NCBI GenBank assembly: GCA_022572885.1 | Contig: JACZVC010000029.1 | Span: 1-34,953 of the forward strand | Length of the DNA: 34,953 bases | Direction of reading: 5' to 3' | Source: Pseudomonadota bacterium | GTDB taxonomy: Bacteria > Pseudomonadota > Gammaproteobacteria > Steroidobacterales > MnTg04 | Shown here: positions 23,287-30,652 of the stretch, piece after piece | Numbering within the stretch: position 1 is the stretch's first letter | Layout of the letters: every line of letters starts with the position of its first letter | Notes under the pieces: generated by a model | Databases searched by the model: none | What the model was told of the DNA's origin: nothing | What the model saw: only the letters and a program-made list of their open reading frames with translations | Made by a program: the position numbers and the translations under genes

Positions 23287-24864
23287 ATGGCGCAGCGAAT
23301 CGAAATCCGGGTTCCCGATATTGGAGATTTCCAGGACGTGGAAGTCATCGAGGTCATGGTGGCGGCGGGAGACCGGGTTGAGATCGAGGACCCCCTGGTA
23401 ACCGTGGAAACCGACAAAGCGGCCATGGATATACCGGCGCCGGTGGCGGGGTCAGTGGTTGAAGTCAGCGTGAAGGTTGGCGCCAAGATTTCTGAAGGCG
23501 ACCTGGTGTTGGTGCTGGATTCAGAAGGCGAGCAACCGGCACCGGCGGACGCGGCGGATTCTGCAGCGGAAGCAAGAGTTTCTTCGCAGCCGGTGGAGAT
23601 CGAAGTCCGGGTACCCGATATCGGTGATTTCACCGATGTGGATGTGATCGAGGTACTGGTCCGGGCGAATCAGGAAATTGAGCTCGAAGAGCCGCTGGTA
23701 ACCCTGGAAACAGACAAGGCGGCGATGGATGTTCCGGCCCCGGCCGGAGGCAGGATCGTGTCGGTCGCGGTCAAAGAAGGCGACAAAGTATCCGCGGGTG
23801 ACCTGATCGTGACCCTGCTGGGAATTCCGGCGCCGGTGCCAGAAAGCCGTCAGCCCCCGGTGGCGGCAGTCGAACCGGCGCCTGCCCCGGAAACGCCTGC
23901 GCCAGCGCGCATTCCCGGGGCGGTGAAGGAATTGCCGGCTATAGACGAGGCCAGTTTCTCCCGCGCCCACGCTGGACCATCGGTCAGGATGCTGGCGCGC
24001 GAACTGGGCGTCGACCTTGGGCAGGTCAAAGGCAGCGGACTAAAGAGTCGCATCACCCATGACGACGTCAAGGCGTGGGTCAAAGCCGTATTGACCGGCG
24101 CTGACGGTTTGCCGGGCGCCGCATTGCCAAAAGTGCCCGAAGTCGATTTTGCCCGGTTTGGCGAGGTCGAGACCCAGCCGCTGGGCCGTATCCAGAAAAT
24201 CTCCGGGCCCCGGCTGCAGGCGGCCTGGATCAATTTGCCCCACGTGTTCCAGTTCGATGAGGCCGATATCACGGAACTCGAAAAAGTCCGCCAGGATTTG
24301 CAGCCGGTTGCCGCCGACAAGGGCGTCAAACTGACGCCGCTGGCGTTTATCCTCAGGGCCTGTGTGCTGGCGCTGAAGGAATTCCCGGATTTCAACAGTT
24401 CACTGTCCGCCGATGGCGAGCACCTGGTTTACAAGAAGTACTTTCACCTGGGATTCGCCGCCGATACGCCAAACGGGCTGATGGTGCCGGTGATTCGCGA
24501 TGCCGACAAGCTGGATATTTATGCCCTGGCCGGCCGGCTCGGCGAACTCAGCGCGAAGGCACGCGATGGCAAGCTGAAAGCCGACGAGATGCAAGGCGGG
24601 ACTTTTACCGTTTCCAGCCTCGGTGGTATCGGCGGTACCGGATTTACCCCGATCATCAATGCACCGGAGGTCGCGATCATGGGTGTCGCGCGATCTGCGA
24701 TGAAACCCGTATACGTCGATGGAAAATTCGTGGCGCGGCTGATACTGCCGTTTTCCGTGTCCTACGATCACCGGGTCATCGATGGCGCTCAGGCGGTTCG
24801 TTTTACCAGCTACCTGTCCACTGTGCTCGCCGATCCCGGCAAGCTGACGGCTCCGCTTTCGTGA
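23287..24864 (+). CDS. aceF: Pyruvate dehydrogenase E2, dihydrolipoyllysine acetyltransferase (two lipoyl domains)
   Basis: A 525-residue E2 core of the pyruvate dehydrogenase complex. Two lipoyl domains each carry the lipoylation motif ETDKAAMD (Lys44 and Lys144), joined by Ala/Pro-rich linkers. A peripheral subunit-binding domain follows at about 226-262 (AGPSVRMLARELGVDLG, VKGSGLKSRITHDDV). The acetyltransferase domain ends with the catalytic YDHRVIDGAQAVRF (His495, Asp499). E. coli AceF has three lipoyl domains; two is common elsewhere. It begins 14 bp after aceE and its stop overlaps the lpd start by 4 nt, so production of all three subunits is coupled. Confidence 0.97.
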   Translation: MAQRIEIRVPDIGDFQDVEVIEVMVAAGDRVEIEDPLVTVETDKAAMDIPAPVAGSVVEVSVKVGAKISEGDLVLVLDSEGEQPAPADAADSAAEARVSSQPVEIEVRVPDIGDFTDVDVIEVLVRANQEIELEEPLVTLETDKAAMDVPAPAGGRIVSVAVKEGDKVSAGDLIVTLLGIPAPVPESRQPPVAAVEPAPAPETPAPARIPGAVKELPAIDEASFSRAHAGPSVRMLARELGVDLGQVKGSGLKSRITHDDVKAWVKAVLTGADGLPGAALPKVPEVDFARFGEVETQPLGRIQKISGPRLQAAWINLPHVFQFDEADITELEKVRQDLQPVAADKGVKLTPLAFILRACVLALKEFPDFNSSLSADGEHLVYKKYFHLGFAADTPNGLMVPVIRDADKLDIYALAGRLGELSAKARDGKLKADEMQGGTFTVSSLGGIGGTGFTPIINAPEVAIMGVARSAMKPVYVDGKFVARLILPFSVSYDHRVIDGAQAVRFTSYLSTVLADPGKLTAPLS

Positions 24865-26330
24865 GCGCGGACGAGCAGACGATGGCTGCGGCCGAATACA
24901 CCGGCACCGTCGATATCTCGACCCGGCTGCTGGTGCTCGGTTCGGGGCCGGGCGGGTACACCGCCGCGTTTCGGGCGGCCGATCTCGGGCTGGAGACGAC
25001 GCTGGTGGAGCGCTTTGATGCGCTCGGCGGGGTTTGCCTCAACGTCGGTTGTATCCCGTCGAAAGCGCTGCTGCATGTCGCCAAGGTCATGGACGATGCC
25101 AAAGCCATGGCCGAGCACGGGGTCACTTTTTCCAAGCCGGTTATCGACCCGCAGGGCTTGCGCGGGTGGAAAGACCAGATCGTCGGGCAACTGAGCAGCG
25201 GGTTGGACGGGTTGGCAAAAAAACGCAAGGTTAGCGTCGTTACAGGGCATGGTGAATTCCTGTCAGCGCACCACCTGCAGGTGAGCAAACCCGATGACTC
25301 GGGAAAGCCGCAGGTCATCGAGTTCGAGCAGTGCATCATTGCCGCGGGTTCGGAGTCGGCCTGGCTGCCCTTTTTGCCGGACGATCGGCGGATCATGGAT
25401 TCGACCGGCGCGCTGGAGCTCGAAGAGCTGCCGGCGCGGCTGCTGGTCATTGGCGGCGGGATAATCGGCCTGGAATTGGCGACCGTGTACCAGGCCCTCG
25501 GGGTCAAGGTTTCGGTCGTGGAAATGACCAGCGGGCTGATGCCCGAGTGCGACCCCGACCTGGTCCGGCCGCTGGAAAAACGGATTCGAAAACAATACGA
25601 GCAGATCATGCTCGGGGTCACGGTGAGCGGAGTCGAGGCGCTGGACGAAGGGCTCAAGGTCAGTTTCTCGGGCGATGGCGCGCCCGACCCGCAAGTTTAC
25701 GGCCGTATCCTGGTCGCAGTCGGACGCAAACCGAATGGTTCGGTGATCGGCGCGGAGGCGGCGGGTGTGGCTGTGGACGAGCACGGATTTATCCCGGTCG
25801 ACCGGCAAATGCGGACCAACCAGGCACACATTTTTGCGATCGGCGATATCGTCGGCGAACCCATGCTTGCCCACAAGGCGTCCCACGAAGGAAAAACCGC
25901 GGCTGAGGTTGCCAGCGGCCTGAAGCGCTCGTTCGATGCCAGGGTTATTCCATCGGTGGCCTACACCGACCCCGAAATCGCCTGGGTCGGCGAGACCGAA
26001 TCCGAACTCAAGGCACAGGGGCGGGCATACGGCAAGGGTGTGTTTCCGTGGGCGGCCAGCGGCCGGTCATTGGCGCTAGGCAGAAACGAGGGTCTGAGCA
26101 AGCTGTTGTTCGACGAAGAAAGCGGGCAGCTGATCGGCGCCGGCATCGTCGGCCCGCAGGCAGGCGACCTGATCGCCGAAATGGCACTGGCGATCGAGAT
26201 GGGATGCGATGCATCCGATATCGCGCTGACCATACATCCACACCCGACCCTGTCGGAAACGCTCGCCTTCGCCGCCGAGGCTTTTGAAGGGACGTTGACC
26301 GACCTGTACATGCCGAAGAAGGGTAACTAA
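24861..26330 (+). CDS. lpd: Dihydrolipoyl dehydrogenase (E3)
   Basis: A 489-residue FAD-dependent disulphide oxidoreductase that reoxidises dihydrolipoyl groups with NAD+. FAD motif: LLVLGSGPGGYTAAFRAADLG. Redox disulphide: GGVCLNVGCIPSK (Cys59, Cys64). NAD motif: LLVIGGGIIGLELATVYQALG. The C-terminal catalytic dyad is in HPHPTLSE (His461, Glu466). The frame begins with GTG at 24861 in a GTGA overlap with the aceF stop, which suggests coupling; ATG at 24882 is a reasonable alternative start that removes seven residues. Because the gene is in the aceEF operon it is the PDH-dedicated E3. No clear intrinsic terminator follows. Confidence 0.96.
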   Translation: MSADEQTMAAAEYTGTVDISTRLLVLGSGPGGYTAAFRAADLGLETTLVERFDALGGVCLNVGCIPSKALLHVAKVMDDAKAMAEHGVTFSKPVIDPQGLRGWKDQIVGQLSSGLDGLAKKRKVSVVTGHGEFLSAHHLQVSKPDDSGKPQVIEFEQCIIAAGSESAWLPFLPDDRRIMDSTGALELEELPARLLVIGGGIIGLELATVYQALGVKVSVVEMTSGLMPECDPDLVRPLEKRIRKQYEQIMLGVTVSGVEALDEGLKVSFSGDGAPDPQVYGRILVAVGRKPNGSVIGAEAAGVAVDEHGFIPVDRQMRTNQAHIFAIGDIVGEPMLAHKASHEGKTAAEVASGLKRSFDARVIPSVAYTDPEIAWVGETESELKAQGRAYGKGVFPWAASGRSLALGRNEGLSKLLFDEESGQLIGAGIVGPQAGDLIAEMALAIEMGCDASDIALTIHPHPTLSETLAFAAEAFEGTLTDLYMPKKGN

Positions 26331-26694: not shown

Positions 26695-28023
26695 TTACCC
26701 CAGCAACGCCTCGACCGCCACACTGTAATCCATCTTCTCGCCTTCCCACCGGGTCACGCAGGTTTTGGAGTCGATCTCGATCCCGGGGATTTCATGGCTC
26801 AGCAAACTCACCGCGTCGGTGTTTGCCGGTATCGGGGGGTGATATTCGGCACGGCGGATGACATTGCCATCTTTGTTTTTGAAAACAATGCGGCCATTGG
26901 CGGTCTTTTCGCAGCCAAAACCGCCTTCATGGACCAACCGGTGGTGATATCGGCATAGCTGTACCAGGTTGTCGATGCGGGTCTCACCACCTGCGGCCCA
27001 GTGCTTGATGTGGTGTCCGTCGATGTAATGCTGATGGGTGCAGCCGGGAAAGCGGCAGCCTTTGTCCCTGGCTTTCAATATTCGCCGCATCGCGGACGGA
27101 ATTACCCGGGATTTGCGGCCGATATTGATCGGTTCGCCGGTCTCGTCCTCGAAAAGCTTCACCACACTGCTGTCGCAAGCGATTCGTCTCGATGTTTCCG
27201 CGGAAACATTGGGGCCGTGTTCGAGTTCGCAGATATCGCCGCTGCCGTCTTCGAGTGTTTCCGCGGAAACATGGACCACGACCTGGTAACGGTCGGCGGT
27301 GGCTGAGGTCCTGGCACCGTGGCTCAAATAAGTCTCGGCCAGTTCGATCAAGGCGTCGGCCCGGTGGACGCTGAAGGGGATTCTTTCACTGGGATTGGGG
27401 TCGTTGCATGTTTCCGCGGAAACATCGGGCTCTTTTCTTTCGGCCTTGGCCCGGTCCATCGCCATTTCCAGGGCTTTGAGCACCAGCGCGCCTTGTTCGG
27501 CGGGCAATCGGGCACGAATCACCAGCGAACCATCTTCATCGGTGTAAAAAGTCAATTCCCGATGTTCGTGCTGTCGGTTGGAATTTTGGGCGTCTTGCAG
27601 TCTTTTGACCCAGCGGGTCTTGGCGATCAGTCTTTCCATGTGGCTGGCGGTGCCGTGCCTGGCGATCATCAGCAGAAAATCTTCGTTCTCACTATTCGCG
27701 ACCCTAGTCATGGCCCGCACCTTCGAATAGCTGATCTCGCCTTTTTCCAAGGCGGCGCTGATTTTCGGTAAATCTGCAAGACAATGCGCCACCCGGACTT
27801 TCTCTCTGGCTGCGTTCATGCCGATGCCGCATTGCCAGTTCAGCCAGTGGGCGCACGAATACAAACCTTCTTCATGCCAGCCATTGGCTTCATCGAATTC
27901 GCGGATCAACGTCAGCAATCGGTACTCGGCGGCATTCAGATAACCGCACAGTTTGGTGATCTCGGCACCGAGTTCTTTGCGGTGTTGTTGGTTCTGTAGT
28001 CGCTGGGCATGGGACAAATACAT
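26695..28023 (-). CDS. DUF222 (13E12-type) HNH endonuclease family protein
   Basis: A 442-residue protein with an N-terminal DUF222 helical region (CGYLNAAEYRLLTLIREFDE, AREKVRVAHCLADLP, ALEKGEISYSKVRAMTRVA) and a C-terminal HNH nuclease module at about 321-366. The module has CRFPGCTHQ, then DGHHIKHWAAGGETRIDNLVQLC and CRYHHRLVHEGG, giving the His/Asn/His core and paired Cys for structural zinc. The family is widespread, often multi-copy and associated with mobile DNA, but its biological target is not established. The middle region (about 200-276) holds three VSAET pentapeptides, each encoded by the same DNA palindrome. The start ATG 28023 has GGAG 7 nt upstream; a -10-like TATACT lies at 28067-28072. 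The gene stands alone, flanked by AT-richer DNA, consistent with acquisition. Confidence 0.9.
   Translation of the reverse strand: MYLSHAQRLQNQQHRKELGAEITKLCGYLNAAEYRLLTLIREFDEANGWHEEGLYSCAHWLNWQCGIGMNAAREKVRVAHCLADLPKISAALEKGEISYSKVRAMTRVANSENEDFLLMIARHGTASHMERLIAKTRWVKRLQDAQNSNRQHEHRELTFYTDEDGSLVIRARLPAEQGALVLKALEMAMDRAKAERKEPDVSAETCNDPNPSERIPFSVHRADALIELAETYLSHGARTSATADRYQVVVHVSAETLEDGSGDICELEHGPNVSAETSRRIACDSSVVKLFEDETGEPINIGRKSRVIPSAMRRILKARDKGCRFPGCTHQHYIDGHHIKHWAAGGETRIDNLVQLCRYHHRLVHEGGFGCEKTANGRIVFKNKDGNVIRRAEYHPPIPANTDAVSLLSHEIPGIEIDSKTCVTRWEGEKMDYSVAVEALLG
27192..27209. repeat. Frame-locked palindrome, copy 1 (encodes VSAET)
   Basis: A perfect 18-bp palindrome, ATGTTTCCGCGGAAACAT, inside the HNH gene. 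On the coding strand it reads AAT GTT TCC GCG GAA ACA T.., giving N-VSAET-S near residues 272-276. The centre is 63 bp from copy 2. Confidence 0.9.
27256..27271. repeat. Frame-locked palindrome, copy 2 (encodes VSAET)
   Basis: A perfect 16-bp palindrome, TGTTTCCGCGGAAACA, in the same codon phase as the other copies, giving H-VSAET-L near residues 252-256. The outer A/T pair of the 18-bp form is lost on one side. Confidence 0.9.
27408..27425. repeat. Frame-locked palindrome, copy 3 (encodes VSAET)
   Basis: A perfect 18-bp palindrome, ATGTTTCCGCGGAAACAT, identical to copy 1 and in the same phase, giving D-VSAET-C near residues 201-205. The centre is 153 bp from copy 2. I found no further copies of the core in the rest of the window. 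Confidence 0.9.
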
Positions 28024-28327
28024 GGTGGGCTCCGGGGGTTGAATCGATGCTGTTCTTAATCCCAGTAGTATAGGCTTATCTTACTGAAAAATAAAGCTTT
28101 ATTGTGCTGTTTTTTGACAGAAAGTGGGCTTGAAAATGCCCCGAAATACGCAAGAACAACCAGGATATCCACAGTCTCTTAGAGGCATCGACGCCGCCCT
28201 TGACTAGGGCTAATTAACCTAATTTTCAGGCGAATAGACCATGCTTCAACTACACTTTCTGAATAGGGCATCTGAAATGGCTGTGAAGAGACTTTTTTAA
28301 TGATGCAGTAAGGTACGGAGGCTGCCC
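28024..28327. promoter_or_regulatory. 304-bp divergent intergenic region between HNH gene and second TonB receptor
   Basis: The region holds the promoters of two divergent genes. For the HNH gene, minus-strand TATACT (28067-28072) is a likely -10 with no strong -35. For the receptor, TTGACT at 28200-28205 is a possible -35 without a good -10 at the right distance, and GGAGG at 28317-28321 is its ribosome binding site. A 14-bp palindrome AATAAAGCTTTATT (28090-28103) and a direct repeat of CTAATT in CTAATTAACCTAATT (28210-28224) could bind regulators. All are visual matches only. Confidence 0.4.
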
Positions 28328-30652
28328 ATGCCCGCAATAATCAAATACGGCATCTTAGGTGTGGTGTACGCATTAGGCGCGTTCTTCAGCCTGTTGCCGA
28401 TTGCCACGGCGCAACCCCAGGAAGCCGCACCGTCCTCGGACAGTGATAACTATCCGTTTATCGAAGAGATCATCGTTACGGCGCAAAAGCGCGAAAAAGC
28501 CGCGCAAGACGTCCCCGTTTCCATGTCGATCTTTAGCAACCGGGAACTGGTGGCGCTCGATCTGACCGATATCGCCGAAATCGCCAGATATACCCCCAAT
28601 CTGGAATGGGATCAGTCCTGGCTTGGAGCATCCAACTCCGCGTCGCTCTATATTCGTGGGGTTGGCCAGGCGGCAAACTTCGCAGAGCACTCCACGGATC
28701 CGGCCGTGGGCCTTTATCTGGACGGAGTCTACGTCGGACGGGCCGCAGGAAGCGTGCTCGGTGTGCTCGATATAAGCCAGGTTGAAGTATTGCGTGGTCC
28801 ACAGGGGACCTTGTTTGGCAAGAACGCAACCGGCGGCGCCATAACCGTTACGACCACACGCCCGACCGACACGATCTCAGTTTGGGCCGACGTCACGACA
28901 GGCAGCGACAACCGAAGCGATTTTCGCCTCGTCGCAAACATTCCGCTCACGGATCAGGTCCTGACGAGATTCTCCGCCTCGAGCCTCAACCGGGACGGCT
29001 ATGGCGTCAGTCTCCAGGATGGCACAGAGTTCGGTGACATCAACACCGATTACGTTCGTGGCGCACTGCGCTGGCTACCCAGGGAAAATCTGACGGTCGA
29101 TTTGATGACAGACTGGACTCGCACCCGCCAGGCCTCCGCGGTGACCACCCTGGTCTTCGTTGACTCCGGTCCCATGACGATTTCCAGCATCTACAATTTC
29201 TTTGTGGCGCCGACCAACACGGTGGCTGGATTCGGCAATGGCGTGCTGTGGGATTCACGGTTCATTACACCAGGCAACTTCACGAATTATTCGACCGACG
29301 AATCGGGATCCGATCTCGATGTTAGAGGGCTGACGGCGATTGTCGATTGGCGGCCCGGCGCCCTCACATTCAAGTCCATCACCGGCTACCGCAGCATGGA
29401 AAGCCATTGGGCTGTGGACGCGGATCTTTCCCCATTATCCATTATCGAGGATGTCATGGGCGCCGACCAGCATCAATTCAGCCAGGAATTCAATCTGCGG
29501 GGCGGCGACGGCGCACTGGACTGGTTGGTAGGCCTCTATTATTTCGAAGAGGAAGCCACCAAACTCAAATCCGGCGTAATCTTAATCCCCGAGGTCGCGA
29601 CGGTTGAATTCGACCCGGTCTTTGGTGTCCCCAACCCGCTATTCGGCATTCCGTTGAGTCCGGGCGTTCAGCCGATCACCAACGTGAGTCGCGCTAACAG
29701 CACGGCCATCTTTTCACATCTTGAGTATGCGTTCACTGAACGCTGGTCAGGGTCGGCGGGAATACGTTACACGACCGAGGAAAAACGGATCAGCAACCCA
29801 CCGGGTGTCGGTCTTGTTGCGAGCAACGGCGACTCCAAGACATTCACCAATCTGTCGCCGATGGTCGGGATGCAATATTTCATTGATCAGGACCTGCAGA
29901 TATATGGCAGCGTCTCACGGGGATTCAAGAGCGGCGGATTCAACTCCCTGGTGCTGCTGCCCAGGCTGGAATATCTACCTTTTGATCCGGAAAAGGCGAC
30001 TTCATACGAACTCGGCGTCAAGGCAAACCGCGGACGATTCACGGTGGCTGGCGCGACTTTTTTTGTTGACTACGACGATATCCAGATCAGTGTGCTGAAC
30101 GGCTTAGAACCTCAGATCCTCAACGCAGCTGAGGCCGAGATAAAAGGGGTGGAAGTCGAACTCGCTGCAACACTCACCACCGGTCTGAGGTTGCAGGCGG
30201 GCATCGGGTATCTGGATGCGAAATACGTCAAACTGGATCCATTGGGTCTTCAGGGCCTGACGGTACCGGTTACGCTGGATTCCAAGTTTATGAACGCGCC
30301 GAAGTGGTCCGTCAATCTGAGCCTGAGCTACTCAACCCAATTGCGCCACCTTGGCCGACTCGCGATTCGCGGCGACTATTCGTGGCGGGATCGGACTTAC
30401 AATAACGCCGTCAATACCGAAGAACTCATCCAGGACGCCTACGGGCTTCTGCATGCCAGTGCAACCCTGGTGAGCAACGATGGCCGCTGGCAGTTCGCTC
30501 TGTTTGGAGACAATCTCACCGACAAGGAGTACATTCAGAGCGGCGAATTTGGCGCAGCCGTCGGTGTAGCGATCGCAAATTTTGGACGTCCACGAACTTG
30601 GGGTTTAAGCGTGCGGTACCGATTTGGGTCTGAAGTCACTCGTGACCACTAG
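28328..30652 (+). CDS. TonB-dependent outer-membrane receptor with unusual C-terminal tail
   Basis: A 774-residue receptor. It has a signal peptide ending near ATAQP, the TonB box-like EEIIVTAQKREK, and a plug domain (DVPVSMSIFSNREL, LYIRGVGQAANF, VGLYLDGVYVGRAAGS, VEVLRGPQGTLFGKNATGGAI). The barrel has typical late motifs (SYELGVKANRGRFTV, LFGDNLTDKEY). The GGAGG site 6 nt before ATG 28328 supports this start. The last beta strand LSVRYRF is followed by eight extra polar residues (GSEVTRDH) instead of ending on the aromatic residue. The class is common in marine gammaproteobacteria and sphingomonads for import of complex organic molecules; the ligand is unknown. It converges with the TPR protein gene at 30687, and its 3' end is duplicated at 32531-32684. 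Confidence 0.93.
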   Translation: MPAIIKYGILGVVYALGAFFSLLPIATAQPQEAAPSSDSDNYPFIEEIIVTAQKREKAAQDVPVSMSIFSNRELVALDLTDIAEIARYTPNLEWDQSWLGASNSASLYIRGVGQAANFAEHSTDPAVGLYLDGVYVGRAAGSVLGVLDISQVEVLRGPQGTLFGKNATGGAITVTTTRPTDTISVWADVTTGSDNRSDFRLVANIPLTDQVLTRFSASSLNRDGYGVSLQDGTEFGDINTDYVRGALRWLPRENLTVDLMTDWTRTRQASAVTTLVFVDSGPMTISSIYNFFVAPTNTVAGFGNGVLWDSRFITPGNFTNYSTDESGSDLDVRGLTAIVDWRPGALTFKSITGYRSMESHWAVDADLSPLSIIEDVMGADQHQFSQEFNLRGGDGALDWLVGLYYFEEEATKLKSGVILIPEVATVEFDPVFGVPNPLFGIPLSPGVQPITNVSRANSTAIFSHLEYAFTERWSGSAGIRYTTEEKRISNPPGVGLVASNGDSKTFTNLSPMVGMQYFIDQDLQIYGSVSRGFKSGGFNSLVLLPRLEYLPFDPEKATSYELGVKANRGRFTVAGATFFVDYDDIQISVLNGLEPQILNAAEAEIKGVEVELAATLTTGLRLQAGIGYLDAKYVKLDPLGLQGLTVPVTLDSKFMNAPKWSVNLSLSYSTQLRHLGRLAIRGDYSWRDRTYNNAVNTEELIQDAYGLLHASATLVSNDGRWQFALFGDNLTDKEYIQSGEFGAAVGVAIANFGRPRTWGLSVRYRFGSEVTRDH

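Follow-up and report, generated by a model that had tools for sequence, protein, structure and literature searches.

Palindromes within DUF222-HNH genes as candidate parS-like binding sites of the encoded protein, which has a predicted ParB/Noc fold

The DUF222-HNH gene and its three palindromes

The window, which is the whole stretch of 34,953 nucleotides that was analysed, contains on its minus strand a gene for a 442-residue protein whose matches to the DUF222 and HNH profiles of Pfam (E 8.6e-25 and 2.5e-5, respectively) both exceed the cut-offs. Its neighbours, named from sequence only, are a dihydrolipoamide dehydrogenase-like gene (lpd, 24861-26330) and a TonB-dependent-receptor-like gene (28328-30652). 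These two were not found adjacent to each other in genomes of the same genus, and therefore no empty site can be read there. The features of the gene are as follows:

26695 to 28023, minus strand: DUF222-HNH gene, an ORF of 442 residues
28048 to 28067, minus strand: LexA/SOS-box-like operator TACTGGGATTAAGAACAGCA, upstream of the ATG
27604 to 27951, minus strand: predicted ParB/Noc-type DNA-binding domain, residues 25-140 (AlphaFold2 model and fold matches)
27410 to 27423, minus strand: site 1, core GTTTCCGCGGAAAC, within the 18-bp palindrome ATGTTTCCGCGGAAACAT (27408-27425), at residue 201
27257 to 27270, minus strand: site 2, core GTTTCCGCGGAAAC, within the 16-bp palindrome TGTTTCCGCGGAAACA (27256-27271), at residue 252
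27194 to 27207, minus strand: site 3, core GTTTCCGCGGAAAC, within the 18-bp palindrome ATGTTTCCGCGGAAACAT (27192-27209), at residue 273
26884 to 27105, minus strand: HNH nuclease domain, residues 307-380 (Pfam HNH and fold match)
26696 to 28138, minus strand: dispersed repeat unit of promoter plus ORF, 91-93% identical to copies on contigs C15 and C37

The core GTTTCCGCGGAAAC has exactly three matches in the window, starting at 27194, 27257 and 27410, against 0.28 expected in shuffled windows even with two mismatches tolerated. The earlier note had described three perfect palindromes in an HNH gene, each encoding VSAET, and their coordinates, their codon phase (0 in all three) and the spacings of 63 and 153 bp between their centres were all confirmed. 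Judged by codon usage in the rest of the gene, any single VSAET would be spelled GTT TCC GCG GAA with a probability of approximately 0.001. Site 1 falls in an inter-helix linker of lower model confidence, and site 3 overlaps the conserved DUF222 motif V-x-A-E-T-x-R-R; many homologues also have a site at the position of site 3, which is -48 amino acids from the CxFPGC motif of the HNH domain.

Copies in the genome and its relatives

In the genome from which the window comes (2.76 Mb in 66 contigs), GTTTCCGCGGAAAC occurs nine times, a count above chance, versus no occurrence of the reversed control sequence. Three copies are located in each of the exactly three DUF222 genes of this genome and none outside them. 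Among 59 genomes of the same order, the window's own included, the core is present in 10 of the 18 that have a DUF222 gene and in 3 of the 41 that do not (Fisher p 1.2e-4). Several DUF222 genes without GTTTCCGCGGAAAC have other palindromes at the same places (ACGTTCCCGCGGGAACGT, ACGTTACCGCGGTAACGT, CGTCTCCGCGGAGACG), and a scan for the variant GTTACCGCGGTAAC found it in all five genomes whose DUF222 gene bears that variant and in none of seven genomes with other variants. The density of palindromes is 8.0 per 10 kb within the genes versus 0 to 0.7 in their flanks. In some genomes, copies are also found outside DUF222 genes, either near them, in intergenic DNA, or in the integron-like repeats of one genome (G060).

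Several of these outlying copies may be described individually. G060 has 22 copies of GTTACCGCGGTAAC versus only about three DUF222 genes, and several of the palindromes (L209, L211) are located in the loop of apparent integron attC repeats. Three related genomes also carry the core within FemAB-like genes (L031:4081, L041:3349, L055:2507; encoding CVSAETGWQP), probably as one old coincidence. A genome that has no DUF222 gene (G019) contains two copies (L053:2625, L054:3249) whose right flanks (AAACATTTGCT) resemble each other. Pairs of palindromes 61 to 66 bp apart, a spacing like that in DUF222 genes, were found at L030:3097-3171 and L033:3034-3113 with no recognizable DUF222 coding match there, and are possibly remnants of DUF222 genes. 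The DUF222 genes themselves number up to 20-22 per genome in G079 and G103, which belong to the class of G071.

Constraint on DNA rather than peptide

In 80 named DUF222 loci from Gammaproteobacteria, Rokubacteria, Gemmatimonadetes and others, 101 perfect palindromes of at least 16 bp were found, compared to approximately 8 expected from the flanks. When synonymous codons were permuted within each of 126 non-redundant DUF222 genes (20 runs), an average of 9.85 and a maximum of 14 such palindromes were produced, versus 155 observed; therefore the constraint is on the DNA and not on the peptide. The palindromes occupy three preferred places relative to the CxFPGC motif, at approximately -160 to -105, -50, and +75 to +95 amino acids, and 125 of the 155 are in the frame that encodes VSAET. 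The frame lock proposed in the earlier note holds for all three sites of the window gene and fails in homologues, where the copies at +75 to +95, towards the C-terminus, are mostly read in another frame and encode CFRGN instead of VSAET. Of 127 DUF222 ORFs, 104 have one or more sites in which no more than one position is unpaired, and no recognizable site was found in the other 23 (about a fifth). Genes of the proteobacterial/Rokubacterial clade typically contain parS-like palindromes, which were absent from most of the actinobacterial DUF222 genes sampled.

Linkers around the sites have diverged by as much as 31 bases per 100 between paralogs in which the sites themselves remain perfect, and almost every variant has a palindromic centre of four bases (CGCG, AGCT, GGCC, ACGT, TGCA). 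An RNA hairpin, with a possible stem and a CGCG loop, was rejected by argument alone, as a loop does not need a palindromic centre. Gene conversion was rejected as the source of site identity because divergence between paralogs around the sites is not reduced and is often higher.

Two local elaborations were noted. Beside the C-terminal site of three loci (L032:13798-14027, L043:13821-14071, L034:3236-3465) there are tandem degenerate copies of a half-site (GGAAACACTTGCG...) that encode repeats resembling GNTCAxSGNTCA. A divergent subclade of DUF222 genes without the usual sites (L148, L149, L153, L186) has a different palindrome at the 3' end of the gene, of the type AATCC[GT]CCACGTGG[CA]GGATT and perfect over as many as 34 bp.

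Site letters follow the gene

The letters of the sites vary between genes with palindromy kept, and tend to agree within a gene: 75 of 88 within-gene pairs of sites have the same core, compared with a mean of 47 and a maximum of 60 in 5000 permutations. Paralogs in one genome may have different variants, as in Seongchinamella (GTTTCC in L092, GATTCC in L104), a Burkholderiales bin (L100, L101, L107), G010 and G050. Thus, the variant tracks the gene and not the genome, a pattern to be expected of proteins that each read their own site but not of an inserted repeat or of a host factor acting genome-wide. One asymmetric variant occurs in both orientations and in two reading frames (L066, L069, L121), and this, together with the gene-specific letters, suggests that the site is recognized by the encoded protein and is not an inserted element.

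Predicted ParB/Noc fold and likeness of the sites to parS

A search of PDB sequences with the window protein returned, of note, only HNH relatives, and the viral contigs that were searched contained only distant relatives. In the AlphaFold2 model of the protein (69 sequences, pLDDT 86), the helical N-terminal domain best matches Noc (VIA Z 8.5), ParB, and Spo0J bound to parS (7.3), and the C-terminal HNH domain is predicted to have a fold like those of the HNH domains of IscB, McrA and Cap5 (Z 6-8). For a Rokubacterial homologue, a model of just the N-terminal domain (pLDDT 96) matches Noc with a Z of 10.2 and Spo0J-parS with 9.9; the best 14 matches to this model are all ParB, Noc, Spo0J or KorB (Z 6.7-10.2), and the first unrelated protein follows at 6.2. 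Middling Z scores can be reached by chance among helical folds. Comparison of the DUF222 and ParB profiles (hhalign) gave a weak match (E 0.04, probability 1.3%), and the HTH_ParB profile weakly matched one of 69 family members (E 0.079). The CTPase motif ENxQR was not found in any of 157 DUF222 proteins, and a GE[RK]R motif (compare GERR of the CTPase) was found in three of the 157. Given the weak sequence match and the missing ENxQR, the DUF222-HNH protein is predicted to have a domain fold in common with ParB without itself being a ParB.

The 16-bp palindrome TGTTTCCGCGGAAACA differs from the parS sequence TGTTTCACGTGAAACA solely in the central four bases. Each half-site of the window palindrome (TGTTTCCG-CGGAAACA) is identical at six of eight positions to that of the parS consensus TGTTTCAC-GTGAAACA (PMC7383237). 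Across the whole protein, the alignment column that follows the site's outer base most closely is residue 64, inside the N-terminal domain: glutamine at this position goes with outer base T (16 of 16 versus 4 of 75), and mostly lysine or arginine with C. This covariation may be taken as a lead from sequence comparison, as it represents only five changes on the tree (p 0.25).

SOS boxes and dispersed units

The LexA box upstream of the window gene has a score of 22.8, and a score of at least 22 is reached by 0.5% of 390 control stretches. Boxes of the E. coli type with a score of at least 18 precede 51% of proteobacterial-type DUF222 genes versus 2.3% of controls, and at a score of at least 24 the comparison is 34% of 111 DUF222 genes versus none of 390 controls. 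Of the actinobacterial DUF222 genes, 14 of 32 have a box of the mycobacterial type (TCGAAC-N4-GTTCGA, at most one mismatch) versus none of 62 controls, in agreement with the published LexA control of the 13E12 family of M. tuberculosis (PMC5005354; PMC4181829). Autoregulation of the promoter through upstream sites was rejected as the main role of the palindromes, since there are few sites of a gene's own variant in its flanks.

The three DUF222 genes of the window's genome belong to units that are 91-93% identical over approximately 1.45 kb and have unrelated flanks; homology extends from approximately 116 bp before the ATG as far as the TA of the stop codon. Units in other genomes have similarly abrupt ends. 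Three units of G060 start exactly at a palindrome on the left edge; in the window's genome, the edges of the units showed no palindrome. The REP13E12 loci of M. tuberculosis, which are related to DUF222-HNH genes, are hotspots of gene conversion (PMC13061034).

Alternative explanations

The palindromes might be a by-product of selection for VSAET as a repeated peptide, with which the predominance of the VSAET frame and the overlap of the -48 site with VxAETxRR are compatible. The earlier note had named conservation of VSAET with varied codons as the sign of such selection, but the codon permutations, which yield approximately 10 palindromes against 155, point the other way; moreover, the C-terminal copies are read in another frame, and palindromic variants that encode VTAVT or VPAGT break the VxAETxRR motif with palindromy kept, so that this explanation is scarcely credible. 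Repeated insertion of a small mobile palindromic element into tolerant linkers, either of the Rickettsia type with which the earlier note had compared it or of the REP type, would account for the extra copies outside DUF222 genes in some genomes, including the integron-like sites of G060, and for the location of two of the three preferred places in linkers. Alignment of homologues, however, showed no clean insertion: at -48 amino acids, residues of the conserved motif are replaced and none are added, and the three preferred places are fixed even in distant homologues. An element of merely 16-22 bp or so, concentrated within the genes as opposed to their flanks (nine of nine copies in the window's genome), with letters that agree within a gene yet differ between paralogs of the same genome, is highly improbable as an inserted repeat.

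Sites for another host factor, such as a regulator, a recombinase, or a phage integrase that docks on DUF222 genes, could explain why some copies are outside these genes, but a host factor would not cause the variant to track the gene instead of the genome, and the encoded protein itself has a predicted ParB-like DNA-binding fold; this alternative is unlikely. More substantial, though still doubtful, is the possibility that the HNH nuclease cuts the palindromes and that the gene is a selfish element of the homing type, which break repair spreads or keeps uniform. This overlaps with the best explanation, that of binding by the encoded protein, to which it adds cutting. It is consistent with the HNH domain, the dispersal of promoter plus ORF as units with unrelated flanks, the SOS control, the gene conversion hotspots at the related REP13E12 loci, and the coincidence of the left edge of the G060 units with a palindrome. 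On the other hand, three intact targets inside the gene would expose it to self-cutting, whereas the target of a homing gene is normally interrupted by the gene itself; resemblance between paralogs is no greater around the sites than elsewhere and is often smaller; and the units of the window's genome lack palindromes at their edges.

Proposed function and relation to known systems

The explanation that probably accounts for these data is that the palindromes are cognate parS-like sites, located within the coding sequence, of the ParB-fold/HNH protein that the gene encodes; the fold is a model prediction and binding by the protein is inferred. The further suggestion of the earlier note, that the palindrome could be the recognition site of the nuclease itself, gains indirect support from the gene-specific variants and from the predicted ParB/Noc fold. 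The N-terminal ParB/Noc-fold domain would bind the 16-bp palindrome as a dimer, with the HNH nuclease next in the same chain. The LexA box would place the gene under SOS control, so that synthesis of the protein would follow DNA damage, and the protein would load on the sites within copies of its own gene. Binding might limit the expression of the protein itself, a speculation that falls somewhat short of an even chance and that draws on analogy with ParB-family proteins, which silence DNA near parS (PMC7333895). It is also conceivable, though speculative and rather doubtful, that HNH nicks or cuts at the sites are followed by recombination that spreads or reshuffles the gene; the divergence near the sites, which is not reduced, is mildly against frequent cutting and copying there.

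The ParB/Spo0J-parS and Noc-NBS systems have the same DNA-binding fold as is predicted for the N-terminal domain of DUF222-HNH proteins, and parS and the window site are both 16-bp palindromes with the half-site TGTTTC, although the centre is ACGT in parS and CGCG in the window site. In B. subtilis, a parS site is located within the spo0J gene itself. Unlike ParB, the DUF222-HNH protein has an HNH nuclease in the same chain, lacks the CTPase motif, and is SOS-controlled, and its sites are within the gene family whereas those of ParB are near the origin. The DUF222/13E12 (REP13E12) genes of Mycobacterium likewise combine DUF222 with HNH, are multicopy members of the LexA regulon (PMC5005354; PMC4181829), and form dispersed units; most of the actinobacterial DUF222 genes sampled differ in lacking the in-gene palindromes. 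Freestanding HNH homing endonucleases resemble the DUF222-HNH system in joining a compact, mobile-looking nuclease gene to a long specific site (putative in the present case), but the DUF222-HNH sites are intact inside the gene and are not an interrupted target. Rickettsia palindromic elements and REP also place a palindrome within coding sequence with in-frame read-through; the DUF222 palindromes, by comparison, are far shorter, are not inserted, occur mainly in one gene family, and have letters that depend on the gene.

A literature search, with most subscription journals outside its reach, found no description of in-gene palindromes or of the function of DUF222, which is a large family of unknown function that includes the SOS-regulated, recombination-prone 13E12 repeats of M. 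tuberculosis. The family now gains a predicted DNA-binding fold and a predicted recognition sequence for each gene. Tentatively, DUF222-HNH genes could constitute an unrecognized class of selfish SOS-induced genes, each encoding a ParB-fold nuclease whose targets in its own coding sequence co-evolve with the protein, and binding or cutting of its own copies could drive their spread, upkeep or control. With the cognate site written into its own gene, the family would be a natural series of matched protein-site variants in which the evolution of DNA-binding specificity may be followed.
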